Origin: Hydra vulgaris
Lineage: Eukaryota > Cnidaria > Hydrozoa > Anthoathecata > Hydridae
Direction of reading: 5' to 3'
DNA: 64,000 nucleotides
Assembly (NCBI RefSeq): GCF_038396675.1
Contig: NC_088926.1
Location: 26,922,501-26,986,500 of the forward strand
Shown here: one piece after another, positions 8,472 to 64,000 of the stretch
Layout: each line of letters opens with the position of its first letter
Numbering within the stretch: the first letter of the stretch is position 1
Notes under the pieces: model-generated
Database searches by the model: none
What the model saw: only the letters and a program-made list of their open reading frames with translations
Told to the model about the DNA's origin: nothing
Position numbers and translations under genes: made by a program

Positions 8472-8484
8472 CCTAATATGTATG

Positions 8485-8565
<81 letters not shown>
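8472..8565. repeat. (TA)n followed by poly-T
   Basis: Interrupted TA dinucleotides followed by about 25 T. Confidence 0.9.
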
Positions 8566-8597
8566 GGTAAGAAATCACTTATTAAATATTCATTATA

Positions 8598-8662
8598 TAC
8601 TGTGTTTCATGTATAAAGACTCATCAGATTTCTGATGATTCTCTATAGATGAAACACAAGTT
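8598..8662. ncRNA. Head-to-head pair of hammerhead-like motifs
   Basis: Two inverted copies of a hammerhead-like core separated by ATTT. The minus-strand copy has CTGATGAG, an 8-nt spacer, then TGAAAC-ACA-GTA. The plus-strand copy has CTGATGA (8632-8638), then ATGAAAC (ends 8655), ACAA and GTT. The arms suggest an ancestor with a TCT/AGA stem II closed by G.U. Each copy now has one defect: a C that breaks stem II on the minus strand, and T for the G after CTGATGA on the plus strand. Stem I is not convincing, so activity is doubtful. Confidence 0.35.
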
Positions 8663-9465: not shown

Positions 9466-9640
9466 ACCGCGTCCCTGGTAGTATCGCGCTCAATTTTCTC
9501 CCCGCAGCGGCCTTGTTCGTCAAATTTCGTGTTTCGGAGTTATAGAGTTGAGAGAAGATTATAACCACAATTAAGTAGCCTCCTCGTCTCTAGTGGCTTT
9601 CTGTGCGTTGGGGAGGTGAATTAACAAAAAAAAAAAAAAA
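9466..9640 (+). mobile_element. SINE family A, 5'-truncated copy
   Basis: Matches the body of the full-length SINE at 37353, from the GTCCCTGGTAGTA block through GCAGCGGCCTTGTTCGTC and AAGTAGCCTCCTC to the A-rich tail. The tRNA-like head is missing. Confidence 0.8.
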
Positions 9641-10384: not shown

Positions 10385-10385
10385 A

Positions 10386-10534
10386 CTTGTTTCTCCGCGC
10401 AGCGGCCTTGTTTGTCAAGGTTCGTGTTTCGGAGTTATAGAGTTGAGAGAGGGCTATAATTACTATTAAGTAGCCTCCTCATCTGTAGTGGCTTTATTGG
10501 CCTTGAGGAGGTGAATAACAAAAAAAAAAAAAAA
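10386..10534 (+). mobile_element. SINE family A, 5'-truncated copy
   Basis: Starts at TTTCTCCGCGCAGCGGCC and runs through TTAAGTAGCCTCCTC to a poly-A tail. Same family as 37353-37595. Confidence 0.8.
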
Positions 10535-10868
10535 TATGTTTATATATATATTTGTTTTTAAGTAAGTTAAACATTTGTACTTAATGAAGATTTATAGTTA
10601 TTTATGTGTCCTGTTTTGTTTTAACTTTAACTATAAAATTAATGTTGACTATGATTTGTATATAAGCTTTTTATTCTTAAAATAAATCTGTGTTTATTCT
10701 GAACATCTGTTGGTTTTTCTTTGTTTTTATTAGTTATCCTCCTTTATATAAAAATTTTTTCAATAAGAATCTTTCATATTTCTCTGAGGGCTTTCATTGC
10801 TCAGTCTAGTGTATCTAAAAATTTTCCATATAATAAATGAAAAAGTAAGATGAAAAAAAACAACTTTT

Positions 10869-10914
10869 TACGGTACTTAAAGTTTCATGCCATTTGCGGC
10901 ACTCATCAGCCATA
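10869..10914 (-). ncRNA. Hammerhead ribozyme
   Basis: Read on the minus strand: stem I UAUGG, then CUGAUGAG, stem II UGCC-loop GCAAAU-GGCA closed by G.U, then UGAAAC, a minimal stem III (A-U and C-G around UUUAA), the cleavage triplet GUA, and CCGUA closing stem I (five pairs, one G.U). All conserved core positions (CUGAUGA, GAAA, UH) are present. The predicted cut is between 10874 and 10873. A very short stem III is typical of hammerheads in Penelope-like elements, and a Penelope-like coding fragment lies about 270 bp away, on the opposite strand. Confidence 0.72.
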
Positions 10915-11177
10915 TATTTAAATCAAGAAAAAACCGTTCAAAAATAAAATTAAAAAACCGTTACAAAATTAAAAAAAACAATGGAATGAGTTCTAACGTC
11001 AAATAATAATAATAATAATAATGACAATAATAATAAAAATAATAATAGTATAAAAAAACATCTTTTTTAATCGCCAGTGTCATATTGGGAAAGAAGGAAT
11101 CTGTTTCTATTTCTACACTTAGAAACATTTATTAAAGTCTGGTTATAAATGTAGTCTAACATATAATCCTATAACAA

Positions 11178-11405
11178 TATCAACTCCAAAACGGAACAGA
11201 GCCCGCAACATCATTTGGTTTAACCCTCCATTTAGTAAAATTAGCACCAACTTTAGCAACGTTAGCACCAACGTGGGAAAATGTTTTTTGAAACTTATTG
11301 ATAAACATTTTCCTAATAATAATAAACTGCATAAATTACTCAACTCAAATAGAAGTAAAACTTTAATTTGGTTGAGTAAACTTCCTTTAAAAAATCAGGT
11401 TTCAT
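11178..11405 (+). pseudogene. Penelope-like retroelement fragment
   Basis: Reads [17 protein letters not shown], then [17 protein letters not shown] and [14 protein letters not shown]. From memory this matches the segment between reverse transcriptase and GIY-YIG endonuclease in cnidarian Penelope-like elements (NPPFSK...NVGK.FL.LIDKHFP). No RT core or endonuclease remains nearby. The family call rests on recognition, not a search. Confidence 0.5.
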
Positions 11406-12168
11406 GTGTTTTTTTTTACCACCACAAGAATTATATATTCATAAAAAAAAATTTATGAAATTTCTACAGGTCTTGTTCTCTTATTAACAACTTTTTGGAG
11501 TAAAGCTTGCATCCCTAAGTAATCAGAACAACATGCCATATCAAAACTGGTAAAACTTGTAAAACTAATTTAAGTCAAAGAAAAATCATAAAGACTGAAA
11601 CTCAGCAGTAGAATGAAACAGAGTTTGTTGATAGCAGTGATAATTTGTTTGATATTGCCTTAAGCATAATCAAAATTCAAGAGAATAATAACTTTCTTCT
11701 TGCTTAAAGATAGAAAGGTTGGTATCAAATGATTCTTTAAAAAAAATTATTCTTAGAGCAGTAATTTTTTTTCTTTCTTAATTTTTTTTTTTTTCATAAT
11801 TTTGCAAAAAAAAAAATATGAATTTAGTTTAGCCAAAAATTTTGGTAAATGTATATCTGAATTGTGCTACCAGGGATGTGGTGTCCCAAAAAAGACTCCG
11901 AAATTGAAAGTAACATAATCTAAGACTAATAAGGTGAAAAAAATCAGCATGTCTAAGGTACAATAACTATCAGTTTTGAACCTGGAGCCTTTATGTATAA
12001 TAGTTGTTAGGGACACTGGGACTCCAGGCTAAATAAAAAAGGTTTTGTATCATAAAATCCCATGAATGGAAAGTCTAAGCTGTAAATGCAGAAACTCGTG
12101 CACTATATTGATTAAGATGATGTATTTTTTGTATATATATATACTTTTTTTCAAATTCTTAAATACAG

Positions 12169-13837
12169 TTACTGAGGCGGCACCAATATCTGAACCTTCA
12201 AGTAACTATTCCTCATTAATTTCAAGTTTTGAATTTGCCTCTACAACTCTATCTACTGTTCCATCTGTATCTACTATTACATCTCCATTTACTATTACAG
12301 CTGCATTTAATACAACCGATTCTATAACTCCTAAATCTAGAAATATATTTATTGAAAGTATAACTGAAGCTACCAAATCTACAGATACATCTACTGAATC
12401 TAATTTTGCTGGTCCTAAATCTAGAATTTCAAGTTTTGAATTTGCCAATACATCTGCATCTACTATTACAATTGCATCTACTGTTACAACTATACTTGCT
12501 TCAACTGATTATACTACTACTACTCCTATATCTTCAAATATATTTACTGAACATATAACTGAAGCTACCATATCTACAGATACATCTACTGAATTTAATT
12601 CTGCAAGCCCTGAGTCCACAATTTCAAGTTTTGAATTTTCCAATACATCTGTATATACTATTACATCTGCATCTTCTGTTACAATTGCATCTGCTACAAC
12701 TGATTATACTACTACTACTCCTATATCTTTAAATATACTTACTGAACATATAACTGAAGCTGTCAAATCTACAGATAGATCTACTGAATCTAATTCTGCA
12801 ACTCCAGATTCTGGAATTTCAACTTATGAAGCTACAACTATTGAATCTACAGTTTTTAAATCTACATCAGCACCTATTACATCTACATTTGTGTCTACTA
12901 AGACTAGATCAGCATGTCTTGAATCTACAATTTCAATTTTCGAATTAATCAATTATACAACTGCATCAACTAATACAATTGAATCTTCTACAACTGAATC
13001 TATTACAGTTTCTAAATCAGCAAACATATTTACTGAAAATATGACTGGAACTACCAATTCTGCATACACATCTGCTGAATCTTTTTTTACAATGTCTGTA
13101 CTGACAGCTACACCTACTAAGTCGATATCTGCAACTTTTGATTCTGCAACTTCAAATTTTGGATCAACGCATACTGAATTCCTAATTCCATTTTCTAATA
13201 TTTCAATTCTAAAATCTACTAATAAAGCTCTTGAGTATACAACTTCTATAGTAACAGCTACGGAATCTAGAATTGTATCTACTGAATATTCAGCTATAGC
13301 TTTTCAAACATCAGCTACTGATTCTATAGCCCCAAATACGCAAATCATTTCTACATCTACTGAACATTTTTCAACAATATTTGCACCCAAAAAACACTTG
13401 TATCTTCTGCAACGTTGAATTTACACCAACAGTTAGTAAATTTGCAACTATAATTCAGGAGTCAATTACACCTGCACAAACTACTGCTCAAACACTTGCT
13501 CAAACTCCACCAGCTTTTAAATCTTCAATTTTGGATTCAACTTTAGAGAATTCAATTAAAACTTTAGAGGTTACAACTACAACTTTAAATTTTTTGGAAA
13601 ATAGAACTATTAACAAAACTTTTATAATGTCATTATCTTCACCTGCAATCCATTTAACTGAAGTTTTAACAACTGCAAAAATTTCCCAGTCAAGTCAATC
13701 AACAATTGAAATAACAAAAGCTATAACAACTCAGGCTATAATTACTCAGGCTACAATAACTCAGACTACAATAATTCAGGCTACAACATCTCAGGCCACA
13801 TTGACTCAAGCTACAACAACTCAGGCTACTACAACAA
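12169..13837 (+). pseudogene. Ser/Thr-rich mucin-like stalk exon, frameshifted
   Basis: Begins after TTAAATACAG at phase 1 and ends at ACAACAA|GTATTT, also phase 1. It encodes about 550 residues dominated by Ser, Thr, Ala and Ile, with degenerate repeats built on TEHITEA.ISTDTSTE and SSFEFANTS, and ends in short TQAT repeats. Such regions are normally O-glycosylated spacers on the cell surface. The frame from the acceptor is open to 13418. The frame that reaches the donor opens around 13381, so at least one indel lies in 13381-13425, in or near a run of six A. A third frame is briefly Ser/Thr-rich there, so two indels are possible. Confidence 0.6.
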
Positions 13838-15508
13838 GTATTTTTTATAATTTTTTTATATAAACCAATTTTAAGTGTTGTTTTTTATTATTACAAATAT
13901 GTATTATTTTTCAAGTTTTCTACTTGAGCATATTTTTTTATTACATTTTTAATTCAAAAGCTCCCAAGGTAAACTCAACGTCTTTTGTTATAGTTATTCC
14001 AAACAACCTAATATCTAACAGTTTAATGAAGTAAGTTTTTTATTTTACATTTGATAGCTAAGTGTTTTTTTTTTCTTTTACATTTTTATTAAAACAATTA
14101 GACACGTTAAAAAAAATTTTATGTAAAAAAATAAATAATAAAAATTTTAATTTTATTTTAAAAGTATTCTTTTTGGAATGAAGAAAAATTTACATATTTA
14201 TGGACTTATGCCACGCAAATTTTTGTGTGTACAGCATGTACAGAAAATATCAAAAACTAAAAAATTATTTTTCTAATTTATATAAATTAAAGCAAGTTTA
14301 AGTAATATTAATTTTAATATATTCAAATATTCCAGTCAATGTCTGAAAATATTTAAAATTCATTCCAGATATTAGTGACCTTTGTTAAACCTTGTGCATT
14401 TATAAACCTGGTGGATAAACTATGTTAAACCAAAAATTTCCTAAACCTTTCATTTATTTTAATACCTTTCATTTATTTTAAGGAAAACAATTAAAAAAAT
14501 TATAGTTATGATTAATTAGTTTTAAAAAATTAATTAAATTTCTTTTTATGATGCTTTATTTATTTATTACATATTATTATTATTTTTAGTTGTCTTTAGG
14601 AATTTTTAGGTAACAGGTCTTCTAAATATTTTTGAACAATACAAGACAACTCACTTCAGTTAAACTATGATTTTGTAAACAGTAAAATTTATTTGAATCA
14701 TTTTTGGATATGAATAAAATTTTTATAGACTTTTTAAAAAGTTAAAAAAAATATTACCATGAAAAATTAAAAATAACCTATTTTTTCAATTTTTTATCTA
14801 GAGTATTTCAAAAATGAAATTTATTTAAGTGCATTTTCTTTACCTACATTTTTTATTGGGTCATAAGATTTTCAAAAGGCACAAAGTCACAGCTGCAGTC
14901 TAAGTGCCTCTAATTAAAATAATGATAACATTCAATGTGATTTTATGGAAACATACATCTAATGGTAAGAACAGTTTTTTGCTGAGTTGCTATTTGTAAC
15001 AAATTTAAAAAAAGTATTAATAAAAAATATATACAGTATATATAAGGCTTTGTTCCTTTATAATATTTTTAATTCTAAGGTCATTTATAGTATTTTTTAG
15101 TTGAATTGTAGATAATGGTAATAAGATTGTTGATACAAAACCTTTAAGACTGTTGAATTTTGATAAAATTTACTCAATAAAATTTTTTTTTATTTTAGTT
15201 TTTTTAAATTGTTGACTTAACTAAAAAAAAAATTTTCTTTAATTTAAATTTTATAATCAATTAGCAAACTTTAAATTTTATTTATGTGTCATGCCTATCA
15301 TTCAATATAAAAATGAACATGATTCTAACCAAGAATCTCAAGTTTGTATTTTGGCCTAGCCATAAAATTTCATTTTTGTGGAGACTGCCAACAGAAGACC
15401 AATTCATTAAACACTTAAAGAAACTTTAATAGAGCTTTGTAATAAGACCTTTAGGTCTTCTTTGAGCTTTCTAAACAAAAATTGACATTATTTGTTTTGC
15501 TTTTCCAG
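13838..15508. other. Receptor intron, no features
   Basis: A/T-rich sequence between the mucin exon and the possible exon at 15509. No repeat family or coding block recognised. Confidence 0.55.
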
Positions 15509-37352: not shown

Positions 37353-37595
37353 GCGGTAGTGGTGTAGTGGTAGAGCGTTCGCTTCATAAGCGTGAGGTTC
37401 CGAGTTCAATCCCCACCACGTCCCTGGTAGTACCGCGCTCAACTTGTTTCTCCGCGCAGCGGCCTTGTTCGTCAAGGTTCGTGTTTCGAAGTTATAGAGT
37501 TGAGAGAGGGTTATGACCACAATTAAGTAGCCTCCTCATTTGTAGTGGCCTTCTGGGCCTTGGGGAGGTGAAATAACAAAAAAAAAAAAAAAAAA
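37353..37595 (+). mobile_element. SINE family A, full length (tRNA-Met-like head)
   Basis: Begins GCGGTAGTGGTGTAGTGG (box A) with an anticodon-like loop CTTCATAAG and box B GAGTTCAATCC, ending the tRNA part at CACCACGTCCC. The body GCAGCGGCCTTGTTCGTC...AAGTAGCCTCCTC follows, then a poly-A tail. The tRNA-like part may still drive pol III. It is unlikely to be a functional tRNA because it runs into the SINE body. Confidence 0.85.
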
Positions 37596-61800: not shown

Positions 61801-64000
61801 CCTCTTCTTTATTTCAAGTAACTTTAAGGGTACCACAAGGTTCTATCTTTGCTCCTGTATTACTTCTTATCTACAATAATGATCTTCATGAAATCTAAAG
61901 TGACTCTATTTGCTGACTCAACTTTATACTCTTGTCTTGACAAAAAATCTTCACTTTTTAATTGCTTAGAACAAGCAGCCAATTTTAAATTTGATCTCTC
62001 TTCTGTAACTGCCTAAGACTTGCAGTGCCTTATGGATTTTAATTCTGGACTTAAAATCCACAATTTTTGTTAGACTTCAAAACTCATTTATTTACTGCAA
62101 AAAAAATATTGCAATATTGTTGGCATTCCAATATTGACGAATAACAACCCTCTTACTTTCAGACAAAGTCTAAAAGCACATTGTTAATGTAATTAGACCT
62201 GCTTTATCTGCCAAACTTGAGCTACTCCCATTGTTGCAAGGTTGCATTTCTTTCTTTTTTCTACAAATACAATCATGGTCAATGCTTAAACGAGCTATCA
62301 TCTCTATAATGATAAACTCATTCTAGCTTGGCTTTTTATTCAACAGGTTGCATCCTTTTACTGTGAAAACCTTATAATTCTTACTCATCTTCATGTTTTC
62401 CTTTTTTATACAACTTACAACTTTTTAAGTTTTCAGTTATACATTTCCTAGTATTTTAGCTTATTCTCTATTTTAAAGTAACTCATAACTTAATAGTGGT
62501 TGCTTGCAATCTTGTAAATTAGGGTTTAAAAATATTTAAATGTATGCCATTATTTAATAAATAGTAAATGCAAGCATAAAATTATAATATGTTAAGTATT
62601 ATAAATTTTTTTTCTAGCCCTGGCTACCAACCCCAGCTAAATCTTATAAATTTGCTGGGATAGGTTTGCAAAAAGTCTTATTTTTAGCCGGGGCCAAACT
62701 TACTATAACTAACAGGATAAAACTGGATAAACTGTTAGTATTAACAATTTGATTGGATAAACTTATAGTCATTATATTTAGAATGATTAAAGTTCTTAAA
62801 CAACTATTAGAGATATATCGATGAAAAAGGCCGATTGTGGCTAATAATAACGTTTAATGTATGTATATAAAAGTAATATATTAATATTAGGTATATAATT
62901 TGCATATAGTTGGGCTTATGCACAAGTATAATATAAGTTGGGCTTATGCACAAGTAGTGGTTTGTTCTATTAGACAATGCCGATGCCTCTACCAATTAAT
63001 GAGCCGATTAAATAGTTAAGCCGATTTTCCAAGTTAAAACTTTTTCTTGAATGCTAAAGATAATAATTGATTAAATTTGTTGCTAAATAAAATACTTGAT
63101 TTGACTAATGATTATTTATAAATTATAATAAATAATTTATTTTTGCAATCTATTTATCATTTAGAACTTAAAACCTGGATTAAAATGAGACTTTTAAAAT
63201 AAATGTTGAGACTTTGATGACTTTTAACTCTTGATGTTTAAATATTTCAAGTCATATAGTTATTTAGAAAGCTATAGCTACTATTTGCATACGTCATATA
63301 ACATTCTTATATAACATTTAATCTGAATCAGGACCAGATCGTGGTATTAAACTGACCCTATATTGAGGCAGGTAAAACTCCTTAGTTGTGGTGAAATCAA
63401 CTTGGAAAAGAAACTCTCATATTAAACCTACAATTTAATCATAGGTAAAGGCAGTATAAACTTTTTATGATAATCCTTGTAGCAGTAGAACCACAATAGA
63501 AATTTTTGCTCTGATTTGCTAAATACATTAATAATAAGATGTTATAAAAAATTAACAATAAGATGTTGTAAAAAATTAACTCTGAAACTATGAAAACTTT
63601 TCCAAACAACACAAGTGTAAAAACAAAGACATTTAACTGTCTTTAACTAAGTTTACATAATACAGAGTATTAATGTCTAACCATTGTCCAACTTTTAATT
63701 CATATTTTAAAGTTTTTTAACAATTCTGAGTAGAATTGCAGCATCACAAGTATCATTGATCTGCCAAGAAGGTGAGCTGGTGTGTTTACACACCTTGGGT
63801 TACACATCAGCATGTTGATGAGCCTCAAAGGGCGAAACACGCAAGTGATTGTGATATGCACAAATTAGACAATAATACTCTGTTTTCACATATTTAATAT
63901 TTAAAAACATACCGATAACAAATACTCTGCAGCTCTATCTGCATTTTGAAAACTTCGTTGAAGAGCTCTTAAAACTTGCTCTCTACTAAAGCCAAGTGAC
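53974..64000 (-). CDS. RAD23: UV excision repair protein RAD23 (5' end beyond window)
   Basis: Minus-strand exons, 5' to 3': 63913-64000 (UBA1, with [16 protein letters not shown] and AAEYLLS), 55628-55712 (acidic linker), 54631-54755 and 54152-54313 (XPC-binding/STI1-like domain, with [17 protein letters not shown] and GRSNPQLLQ, then a Gly-rich linker) and 53974-54075 (UBA2, with [19 protein letters not shown], ending FLLSSI-stop). All junctions have GT/AG borders and agree in phase. RAD23 shuttles polyubiquitinated proteins to the proteasome through its UBA and N-terminal ubiquitin-like domains and stabilises XPC in nucleotide excision repair. The ubiquitin-like part lies beyond the right edge. 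No disabling change is seen. The large intron 55713-63912 is full of repeats. Confidence 0.92.
55784..55894. repeat. (TA)n microsatellite
   Basis: About 110 bp of TA with CATA interruptions, at the 5' end of the large RAD23 intron region, 70 bp beyond the linker exon. Confidence 0.95.
56276..56415 (+). pseudogene. Tc1/mariner transposase N-terminal fragment
   Basis: Diverged copy of 33003-33146, ending at the same AAATTTAAATGCAGCCAA point. A catalytic C-terminal half of a Tc1 transposase in the same orientation lies at 59140-59820. The two may be halves of one element split by the material between. Confidence 0.5.
57081..57165. repeat. 27-bp triplicate repeat in decayed ORF
   Basis: Three exact copies of GCAAACATTCTAATGATAAC plus GAAAAAA. 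Read in one frame they encode KSKHSNDNE three times, probably the original coding frame of an unidentified element spanning about 56860-58970. Confidence 0.8.
57430..57640 (+). mobile_element. SINE family B (tRNA-derived)
   Basis: GCAGCCATAGCGCAGTGGG head containing a short internal duplication (CAGAACTTAGAGGT twice), then GGCATGAACTTCCTG, CTCCCGCGGTGCTCTGTG and GGAAGCACCTAAATAAC, and an ACA/A-rich tail. Lies in the RAD23 intron, antisense to RAD23. Confidence 0.85.
59140..59820 (+). pseudogene. Tc1/mariner transposase C-terminal half
   Basis: Plus-strand blocks separated by stops: DETYCKKD (first catalytic Asp region), [54 protein letters not shown] and [13 protein letters not shown]. The order fits the catalytic domain of a Tc1-like transposase. 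At least six stops. Confidence 0.65.
60527..60665. repeat. (ATC)n-rich degenerate microsatellite
   Basis: ATCATC, TTCATC and GATCAT units between about 60590 and 60660. No gene. Confidence 0.75.
60770..62290 (+). pseudogene. Decayed CR1/Jockey-type LINE reverse transcriptase
   Basis: Plus-strand blocks in shifting frames: [20 protein letters not shown] before 61620, [20 protein letters not shown] near 61830 (the VPQGS motif of non-LTR RTs), then [20 protein letters not shown] (FADD box with one Asp lost) near 61895 and KFDLSSVTA and LMDFNSG near 62000. The catalytic YADD/FADD acidic pair is damaged and several frames are broken. In the RAD23 intron, antisense to the gene. Confidence 0.72.
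62926..62957. repeat. Short tandem duplication
   Basis: AGTTGGGCTTATGCACAAGT occurs at about 62907 and again at 62936. Confidence 0.75.
63815..63847 (+). ncRNA. Degenerate hammerhead-like motif
   Basis: UUGAUGAG, stem II GCCU-CAAA-GGGC, GAAAC, a possible tiny stem III around ACGCAA, then GUG. The core differs from a working hammerhead at two positions: U for C at the start of CUGAUGA, and G at the cleavage position. No continuous stem I. A perfect GGTGTG-TTTA-CACACC hairpin lies 35 bp upstream. Confidence 0.3.

Follow-up and report, generated by a model that had tools for sequence, protein, structure and literature searches.

Introduction

Minimal type I hammerhead ribozymes reportedly occur in the pLTRs (direct terminal repeats) of Penelope-like retroelements, as Cervera and de la Pena in 2014 and Lunse et al. 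in 2017 are said to have described. The hammerhead considered here is thus of a kind familiar from these elements, with which it shares the type I core, the short stem III, the occurrence of the motif in tandem terminal repeats and the presumed cleavage as dimers. It differs from them, as far as they are described in the papers that cite them, by a 9-nt stem III strand that allows a third pair, and a fourth one between strands, and by position 11.1, which is U in 14/14 rows of our alignment, facing U, G or A. The in vivo activity and role of Penelope-like hammerheads have been called still a mystery in a paper that also cites dimer cleavage of Penelope hammerhead variants (PMC7761336).

Among the described systems, Poseidon of Anolis carolinensis resembles the present element in having a sense hammerhead at the pLTR/ORF border, near the ORF start, tandem units, an insertion that begins at internal RNA sites and not at the ribozyme, and an AT-rich target (PMC11167929). 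Poseidon is cut 26 bp inside its ORF (PMC11167929), whereas the cut predicted here falls 173 nt before the GTG taken as start and 209 nt past the stop codon, and the flanks are here (AT)n at 28/29 exact termini. Cleavage of the lizard element required protein, and its ribozyme mutants inserted in vitro all the same (PMC11167929). The endonuclease-bearing Penelope elements of the rotifer Adineta vaga are similar by their inverted head-to-head copies, pLTRs, partial tandems and optional tail at one end, but their tail is of 31 bp, against about 79-91 nt here; the word hammerhead is absent from the main text of the paper that describes them (PMC3846280). Finally, amphibian satellites and the axolotl retrozyme also have a weak stem III, a palindromic loop, dimers that cleave better and, in one family, a U.U at the stem II base, but their repeats are short, of about 330-350 nt, and are described as non-autonomous (PMC7229834), unlike the 2515-bp unit found here.

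The DNA analysed, hereafter the window, is a stretch of 64,000 nucleotides of the Hydra vulgaris genome. Our reading, to which we give a probability of roughly 85%, is that it contains the hammerhead of a Penelope-like pLTR, carried here by a decayed head-to-head insertion, and for which a role in dimer cleavage is proposed. None of the titles and abstracts listed by the literature searches describes this element family, which may nevertheless already be in print.

The hammerhead core

The type I hammerhead core is 46 nt long and lies on the minus strand (10869..10914). Its stem I, UAUGG/CCGUA, is formed by 10914-10910 and 10873-10869, and is followed by the CUGAUGA core (10909-10903) and by stem II, GUGCC/GGCAU (10902-10898 and 10891-10887), with its GCAAAU loop. 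On the 3' side of stem II come GAA, the stem III strand ACUUUAAGU at 10883-10875 and A17 at 10874. CUGANGA, GAAA, A15.1-U16.1, H17 and three stems round the core are all found, and every core position that we take to be essential from the standard hammerhead numbering is present, in agreement with the original prediction of a complete catalytic core. The putative self-cleavage site deduced from the fold (10873..10874, minus) falls between A17 (10874) and C1.1 (10873), which is where that prediction had placed it. Its stem lengths, on the other hand, have to be corrected: stem II, given as 4 bp, has 5 bp counting the closing G.U, and 6 with the inner G.U, and stem III, given as two pairs, is short indeed, but a third pair, U-A, is possible next to A-U and C-G, the 9-nt strand being a palindrome around one base.

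The pair 10.1-11.1 counts against the motif, as it is canonically G-C but is G.U in the window and U.U in 9/14 rows. Compared with the tandem-array unit to which it was aligned, the window core differs by one base in 46 nt, which turns an inner G-C of stem II into G.U.

The site at 10914-10869 is the sole match of a hammerhead descriptor on both strands of the 64 kb. Among 52,000 order-3 Markov windows, there were 61 CUGAUGA cores whose stems reached 5/5/2 bp or more, about 0.0012 per window, and 19 with stems of 5/5/3 bp, about 0.0004 per window; these counts rise to 132 and 50, respectively, with any base at position 7. An Rfam search at the curated threshold gave no family match in the window and, on an 81-nt stretch, RF00163 scored 19.0 bits against a curated cut-off of 34 (E 0.013 for all 4227 families), a low score that would be typical of short-stem-III variants. 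A covariance model trained solely on 18 viral-contig hammerheads (R1) gave the ribozyme 20.4 bits (E 8e-4 in the window, E 0.009 over 774 kb). The covariance-model scan that had been suggested as a check thus recovers the site, but it places two other sites of the window higher (24.3 and 21.6 bits), despite an H17 or a C3 that is broken when read by eye.

The single-strand folding energy is ordinary (z -0.62; 50/200 shuffles fold equally well), and stem I pairs reach about 1.5% probability at 25 C within 154 nt of genomic context, which counts against the fold. The single-sequence statistics for the ribozyme are thus only suggestive. The motif is very probably a genuine hammerhead, the strong evidence being comparative.

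The element and its copies

The genome searched amounts to 911.5 Mb in 15 contigs. With a 121-nt query (window 10840-10960), 1443 candidates were obtained, of which 40 were scored; all of these are full-length, one being the window's own copy and 39 being other copies, 98% identical. On contig C9, two sets of four copies face each other head to head, one on the plus strand with a period of 2515 bp and one on the minus strand with a period of 2516 bp. Intact tandem units consist of ribozyme, 710-aa ORF and ribozyme, with a spacing of 2514-2516, and the three whole 710-aa ORFs of the locus L154 are each bordered on both sides by a ribozyme of their own sense, one lying between successive ORFs. 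When the unit (2515 bp) is numbered from the first base past the cut, the ORF extends from about 174, GTG being taken as start in an open frame that is longer than 710 aa (733 codons), to 2306, and the next cut comes after 2515. As the unit spans the entire ORF from cut to cut, such an RNA would contain a complete ORF. Of the 57 family-1 sites of the fetched loci, 55 have an intact core pattern, both loci and sites having been picked by similarity.

The family has several features of Penelope-like elements: direct terminal repeats (pLTRs) flank the ORF in tandem and partial-tandem copies, inverted head-to-head copies bear an extra tail at one end, and a hammerhead motif lies in the terminal repeat. 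The equal unit lengths within each C9 arm were considered as a sign of one template copied repeatedly, but this argument was dropped because the three minus-arm units compared reach 2516 through three different one-base insertions. Two units of C6 share four variants, which fits repeated copying of one template without proving it.

The names of the putative reverse transcriptase and GIY-YIG domains rest on motifs read by eye in the 710-aa protein, FDIIDFYPSI and GLYRDDGL being reverse transcriptase-like and IVYQATV...YIGIS being GIY-YIG-like. Penelope-type reverse transcriptases are the sister group of telomerase. Pfam, NCBIfam, PADLOC and PDB sequence searches of the 710-aa protein gave no reverse transcriptase or GIY-YIG match. 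A first structure model, made by AlphaFold without alignment, was useless (mean pLDDT 32.9). When the last 151 residues were modelled (mean pLDDT 63.7), a strand-strand-helix-helix-strand order was obtained from residue 23 on, where a GIY-YIG domain would be expected; when this model was submitted to Foldseek, there was no GIY-YIG among the 50 matches listed of 535, and none at E 0.001 or better. The element protein was also sought in viral contigs, where two scans yielded 26 and 34 pattern-matching stretches, 0 of which were confirmed.

The insertion in the window

At the window locus, the minus strand contains the 3' end of a Penelope-like element (10832..11127, 91% identical by BLAST), comprising the ORF C-terminus, a 3' UTR with ATT repeats and a terminal repeat with the ribozyme; window 11127-10832 aligns to unit 2246-2515 and then to 1-43. 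The C-terminal ORF end (11067..11127, minus), with its stop at 11067-11069, was identified by DNA alignment and by-eye comparison with the ORF end of L154, is in the same sense as the ribozyme and is covered by a frame, 11067-11168, of the ORF listing of the window. The ATT/AAT repeat of the 3' UTR (11002..11047, minus) aligns with one found in the intact unit too. On the other side of a head-to-head junction at 11127/11128 lies an inverted arm (11128..11335, plus), an internal ORF fragment that aligns to unit 1553-1742 with about 90% identity and contains a 21-bp tandem duplication. Similar junctions recur among other copies of the family, and the outer flank of the window copy is AT-rich and not a clean AT repeat. 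As judged from these alignments, the window locus is a decayed two-armed, head-to-head insertion.

The association with a Penelope-like element, proposed in the original prediction, is borne out, the unit alignment placing the ribozyme in the terminal repeat of such an element. The ribozyme had also been described as opposite to the coding remnant; as it directly follows the C-terminal coding end, both being on the minus strand (alignment 11127-10832), this strand argument fails, and the reading of the ribozyme as antisense to its element was rejected. The guess of an inverted copy was nevertheless close to the truth, the plus-strand piece at 11128-11335 being an inverted arm of the same family.

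Conservation and covariation in related elements

A protein search of the genome gave 15022 candidates and 64 rows (63 scored), including intact frames at 64-70% identity. Eleven elements of 64-70% protein identity were sampled through 14 short stretches beside them, and a ribozyme was found at 10/11 of them, in 4/7 upstream and 6/7 downstream stretches. Both flanking stretches of the element without ribozyme (C5:1743394) are other sequence. For two of the ten ribozymes (L195, L199), part of stem I lies outside the sequence read. The ribozyme of L191 is inverted relative to the ORF, those of the other sampled elements being in sense.

Further alignment rows were taken from the flanks of fetched loci with a loose pattern. 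The alignment A2 contains 13 of 22 distinct hammerhead-like rows, and A4 is A2 with the addition of L122 (14 rows). Rows that were left out are four family-1 rows close to used ones (L154:1340, L169:3796, L176, L185), L182, which is close to L188, two decayed L181 rows, two rows of a palindrome of the window, the partial L195 and L199, and L189, L197 and L201, which repeat others; adding the decayed rows would reduce the pairing percentage. Four of the rows used (L124, L128, L156, L173) are ribozymes without tie to an ORF.

In the 13 rows, 12/16 pairs are changed on both sides, with a score of 0.413 vs 0.161 for shuffles (0/500 reach it). With 14 rows and the fourth stem III pair, 13/17 pairs are changed on both sides, a number that 2/500 shuffles reach, and the covariation score is 0.477 vs 0.175 for shuffles (0/500 reach it), sliding the alignment giving no more than 0.140. 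Further pair types are weakly above shuffles (22 vs 18.3; 40/500 reach). The pair types of stem I columns 6 to 8 include UA, UG, CG; GC, UA, AU; and GC, UA, CG, respectively, and the outermost columns of this stem seldom pair (column 1 in 3/14 rows, column 3 in 5/14). H17 is A, U or C across families.

An independent match came from a scan of bacterial and archaeal genome contigs, which returned a 67%-identical peptide on L122 (NZ_MPRK01000087.1), labelled Solemya elarraichensis gill symbiont. This scaffold is probably animal DNA, likely that of the clam host in a bacterial assembly. It contains the C-terminal half of a related ORF, a spacer and the N-terminal part of a next ORF. A covariance model made exclusively of rows from the window's own genome (R2) finds a hammerhead in the spacer (1248-1295, 33.6 bits, E 7e-7), and R1 ranks the same site first within L122 (17.5 bits). 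L122 also has a long ORF resembling an animal LINE.

Stem III and the putative dimer

The fourth stem III pair is complementary in 12/14 rows, as U-A (10 rows), C-G (1) or G-C (1). Because it is unable to close a one-base hairpin loop, its retention, which is partly due to shared ancestry, points to pairing between two ribozymes. Stem III palindromes allowing dimers have previously been described for other hammerheads (PMC3088659). When two copies of the window ribozyme are cofolded, the minimum is a full double hammerhead, with -21.0 vs 2 x -7.8 kcal/mol. In the cofold minimum, three or more stem III pairs form between the two molecules in 10/14 rows, the exceptions being L194, L124, L156 and L173, whereas stems I and III are both intermolecular in 6/14 (window, L154, L169, L175, L128, L122). 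Counting against the dimer, the minimum is other than the full double hammerhead in 8/14 rows. L122 loses its double-hammerhead fold with two more flanking bases per side. As the stem III strand is palindromic in 12/14 rows, cleavage is probably dimeric, and the original prediction that dimers would cleave best is likely to hold.

Insertion ends and target

The 3' ends of the copies were tallied on the unit in 64 rows ending below position 400, from 63 overlapping loci, so that rows do not stand for independent insertions. These ends fall at 133 (23 rows), 54 (18) and 137 (14, including 12 internal repeats of L142/L172), the others being at 42-57 (7, two of which are the window copy seen twice), 130 (1) and 99 (1); 0 of the 64 tallied ends are at the ribozyme cut. 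The 54 class actually ends at about 42, as the alignment continues into the AT repeat. Rows ending above 400, outside the tally, mostly have the appearance of inner breakpoints, and one at 2515 is a split continuous match. The arms of L169 (2437) and L176 (2477), which apparently end short of the cut, count against this picture. L142 and L172 are one locus (G000:C7 near 14.34 Mb), where the insertion contains some six copies of the 85-bp segment that separates the two end points (unit 52-137); these repeats look as if reverse transcription had restarted between two start points.

An exact-motif count, from which the window copy was excluded, gave 15 short and 14 long distinct termini. At least 25 of the 30 flanking bases are in (AT)n phase in all of these except L131, which begins with ATATATATAT. 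Several insertions have one short and one long end, e.g., L127, L180 and the C9 array, and L187 has two long ends; the tail at one end is of about 79-91 nt. The finding that both outer ends are 3' ends is consistent with priming of either target strand, and both target strands were extended in vitro with the lizard element (PMC11167929).

Those arms that start at +42 or +133 and continue backwards over the cut as far as the ORF had templates with an unbroken junction. Some arms do not reach so far: the left arm of L174 halts at position 9, and in L176 an arm that has been round once halts at position 7. Such ends near position 1 could be explained by run-off at a 5' end cut by the ribozyme, but two cases are no proof of it. 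The loci were picked by ribozyme or ORF similarity, and copies made from cut RNA could be missed in such a sample.

Proposed role and alternative explanations

The position, sense, conservation and covariation of the ribozyme, as well as the ends and target of the intact termini, can be read directly in the DNA; from them we infer its catalytic activity, dimer and role. In the proposed mechanism, a transcript running through two terminal repeats would carry two ribozymes, whose palindromic stem III strands would pair to form a double hammerhead. This would cut at GUA^CC and give a unit-length RNA with one whole ORF. The template of insertion would usually have kept the ribozyme junction, either as unprocessed RNA or as a re-ligated circle, because the tallied ends are found some 42 or 133 nt past the cut. 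A more daring possibility, which we consider rather unlikely, is that the ribozyme acts as a two-copy sensor: the double hammerhead alone would be active, so that only RNAs with two terminal repeats would cut themselves, the exact unit-length RNAs would be circularised by a host ligase, and the element would copy these circles for more than one round from +42 and +133 at both sides of an (AT)n break. If this were true, head-to-head tandem arrays would arise directly.

Alternatively, both element and fold could be real but catalysis lost, the RNA structure being kept for protein binding or for the start of reverse transcription. The G.U or U.U at the stem II base, the weak fold of a single copy, the tallied ends beyond the cleavage site, which imply that most templates were uncut there, and the in vitro insertion of lizard ribozyme mutants (PMC11167929) would all agree with such a loss. 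However, an axolotl hammerhead with U.U at this pair still cleaves (PMC7229834), and the core pattern is kept in nearly all family-1 sites of the similarity-picked loci and across families, with an H17 that varies only among A, U and C. We therefore regard a loss of catalysis as improbable.

A non-autonomous retrozyme, in which small circular RNAs are made from a short, tandemly repeated unit bearing a type I hammerhead, is a very improbable source of the motif. Cnidarian repeats of about 220-350 bp do exist, and one coral has more than 6000 type I motifs (PMC7229834), but the repeat unit is here 2515 bp long with a 710-aa ORF, and no tandem array of a unit of about 220-350 bp is listed at the locus. 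Metazoan retrozymes are non-coding tandem repeats of about 150-450 bp round a type I hammerhead, and this class was rejected for a coding unit of such length. A chance match of the descriptor in AT-rich DNA, for which the Rfam score under the curated cut-off, the z-score of just -0.62 and two non-canonical sites scoring equally high in the same window could be invoked, has a next to negligible probability, given the 0.0012 matches or so expected per window for stems of 5/5/2 bp, the ribozymes that divergent elements carry at the same position with compensatory changes in all three stems, and the independent match between ORF pieces in L122.

With a pLTR hammerhead of a Penelope-like element as the preferred reading, a vague role now becomes testable, as the cut end does not coincide with the insertion start in the examined copies and the stem III pair that only two copies can form is mostly retained. 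Hydra, a laboratory animal, offers tandem units that are intact, divergent families whose ribozymes covary, and a large number of insertions with readable ends.

Other features of the window and of viral contigs

The window contains a decayed, palindromic hammerhead-like remnant related to a second family (8570..8662, minus), found by the R1 scan, hairpin statistics and similarity, beside an (AT)n repeat at 8476-8539. The region 8476-8662 includes a strong palindrome, some 60 nt long (hairpin z -5.35), both strands of which contain CTGATGA...GAAACACA, and is 76-79% similar, in an alignment that includes the AT repeat, to stretches in L124 and L128. In these two loci, a few dozen bases separate the end of the second hammerhead family from (AT)n, and stem I has undergone a compensatory change. 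The palindrome of the window looks like the decayed head-to-head end of another ribozyme-bearing element; coincidence was abandoned as an explanation after the similarity to L124 and L128 was seen.

A further hammerhead-like site at 63810-63859 (plus) has good stems I and II, but C3 is changed to U and H17 is G; it scores 21.6 bits with R1 and could be a remnant or a chance occurrence. A SINE-like repeat is present in three copies, 88-91% identical, at 9466-9640, 10385-10534 and 37415-37592, one of them about 330 bp from the ribozyme. A sequence similar, by eye, to the start of this repeat follows the AT terminus of L131. Open frames rich in Ser/Thr, which include a tandem repeat of 195 bp and resemble a mucin-type surface protein, occupy 12066-13863 (plus). 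Finally, several canonical hammerheads are found in a row in the IMG/VR contigs L066, L036, L108 and others, with four within 1.6 kb of L066.
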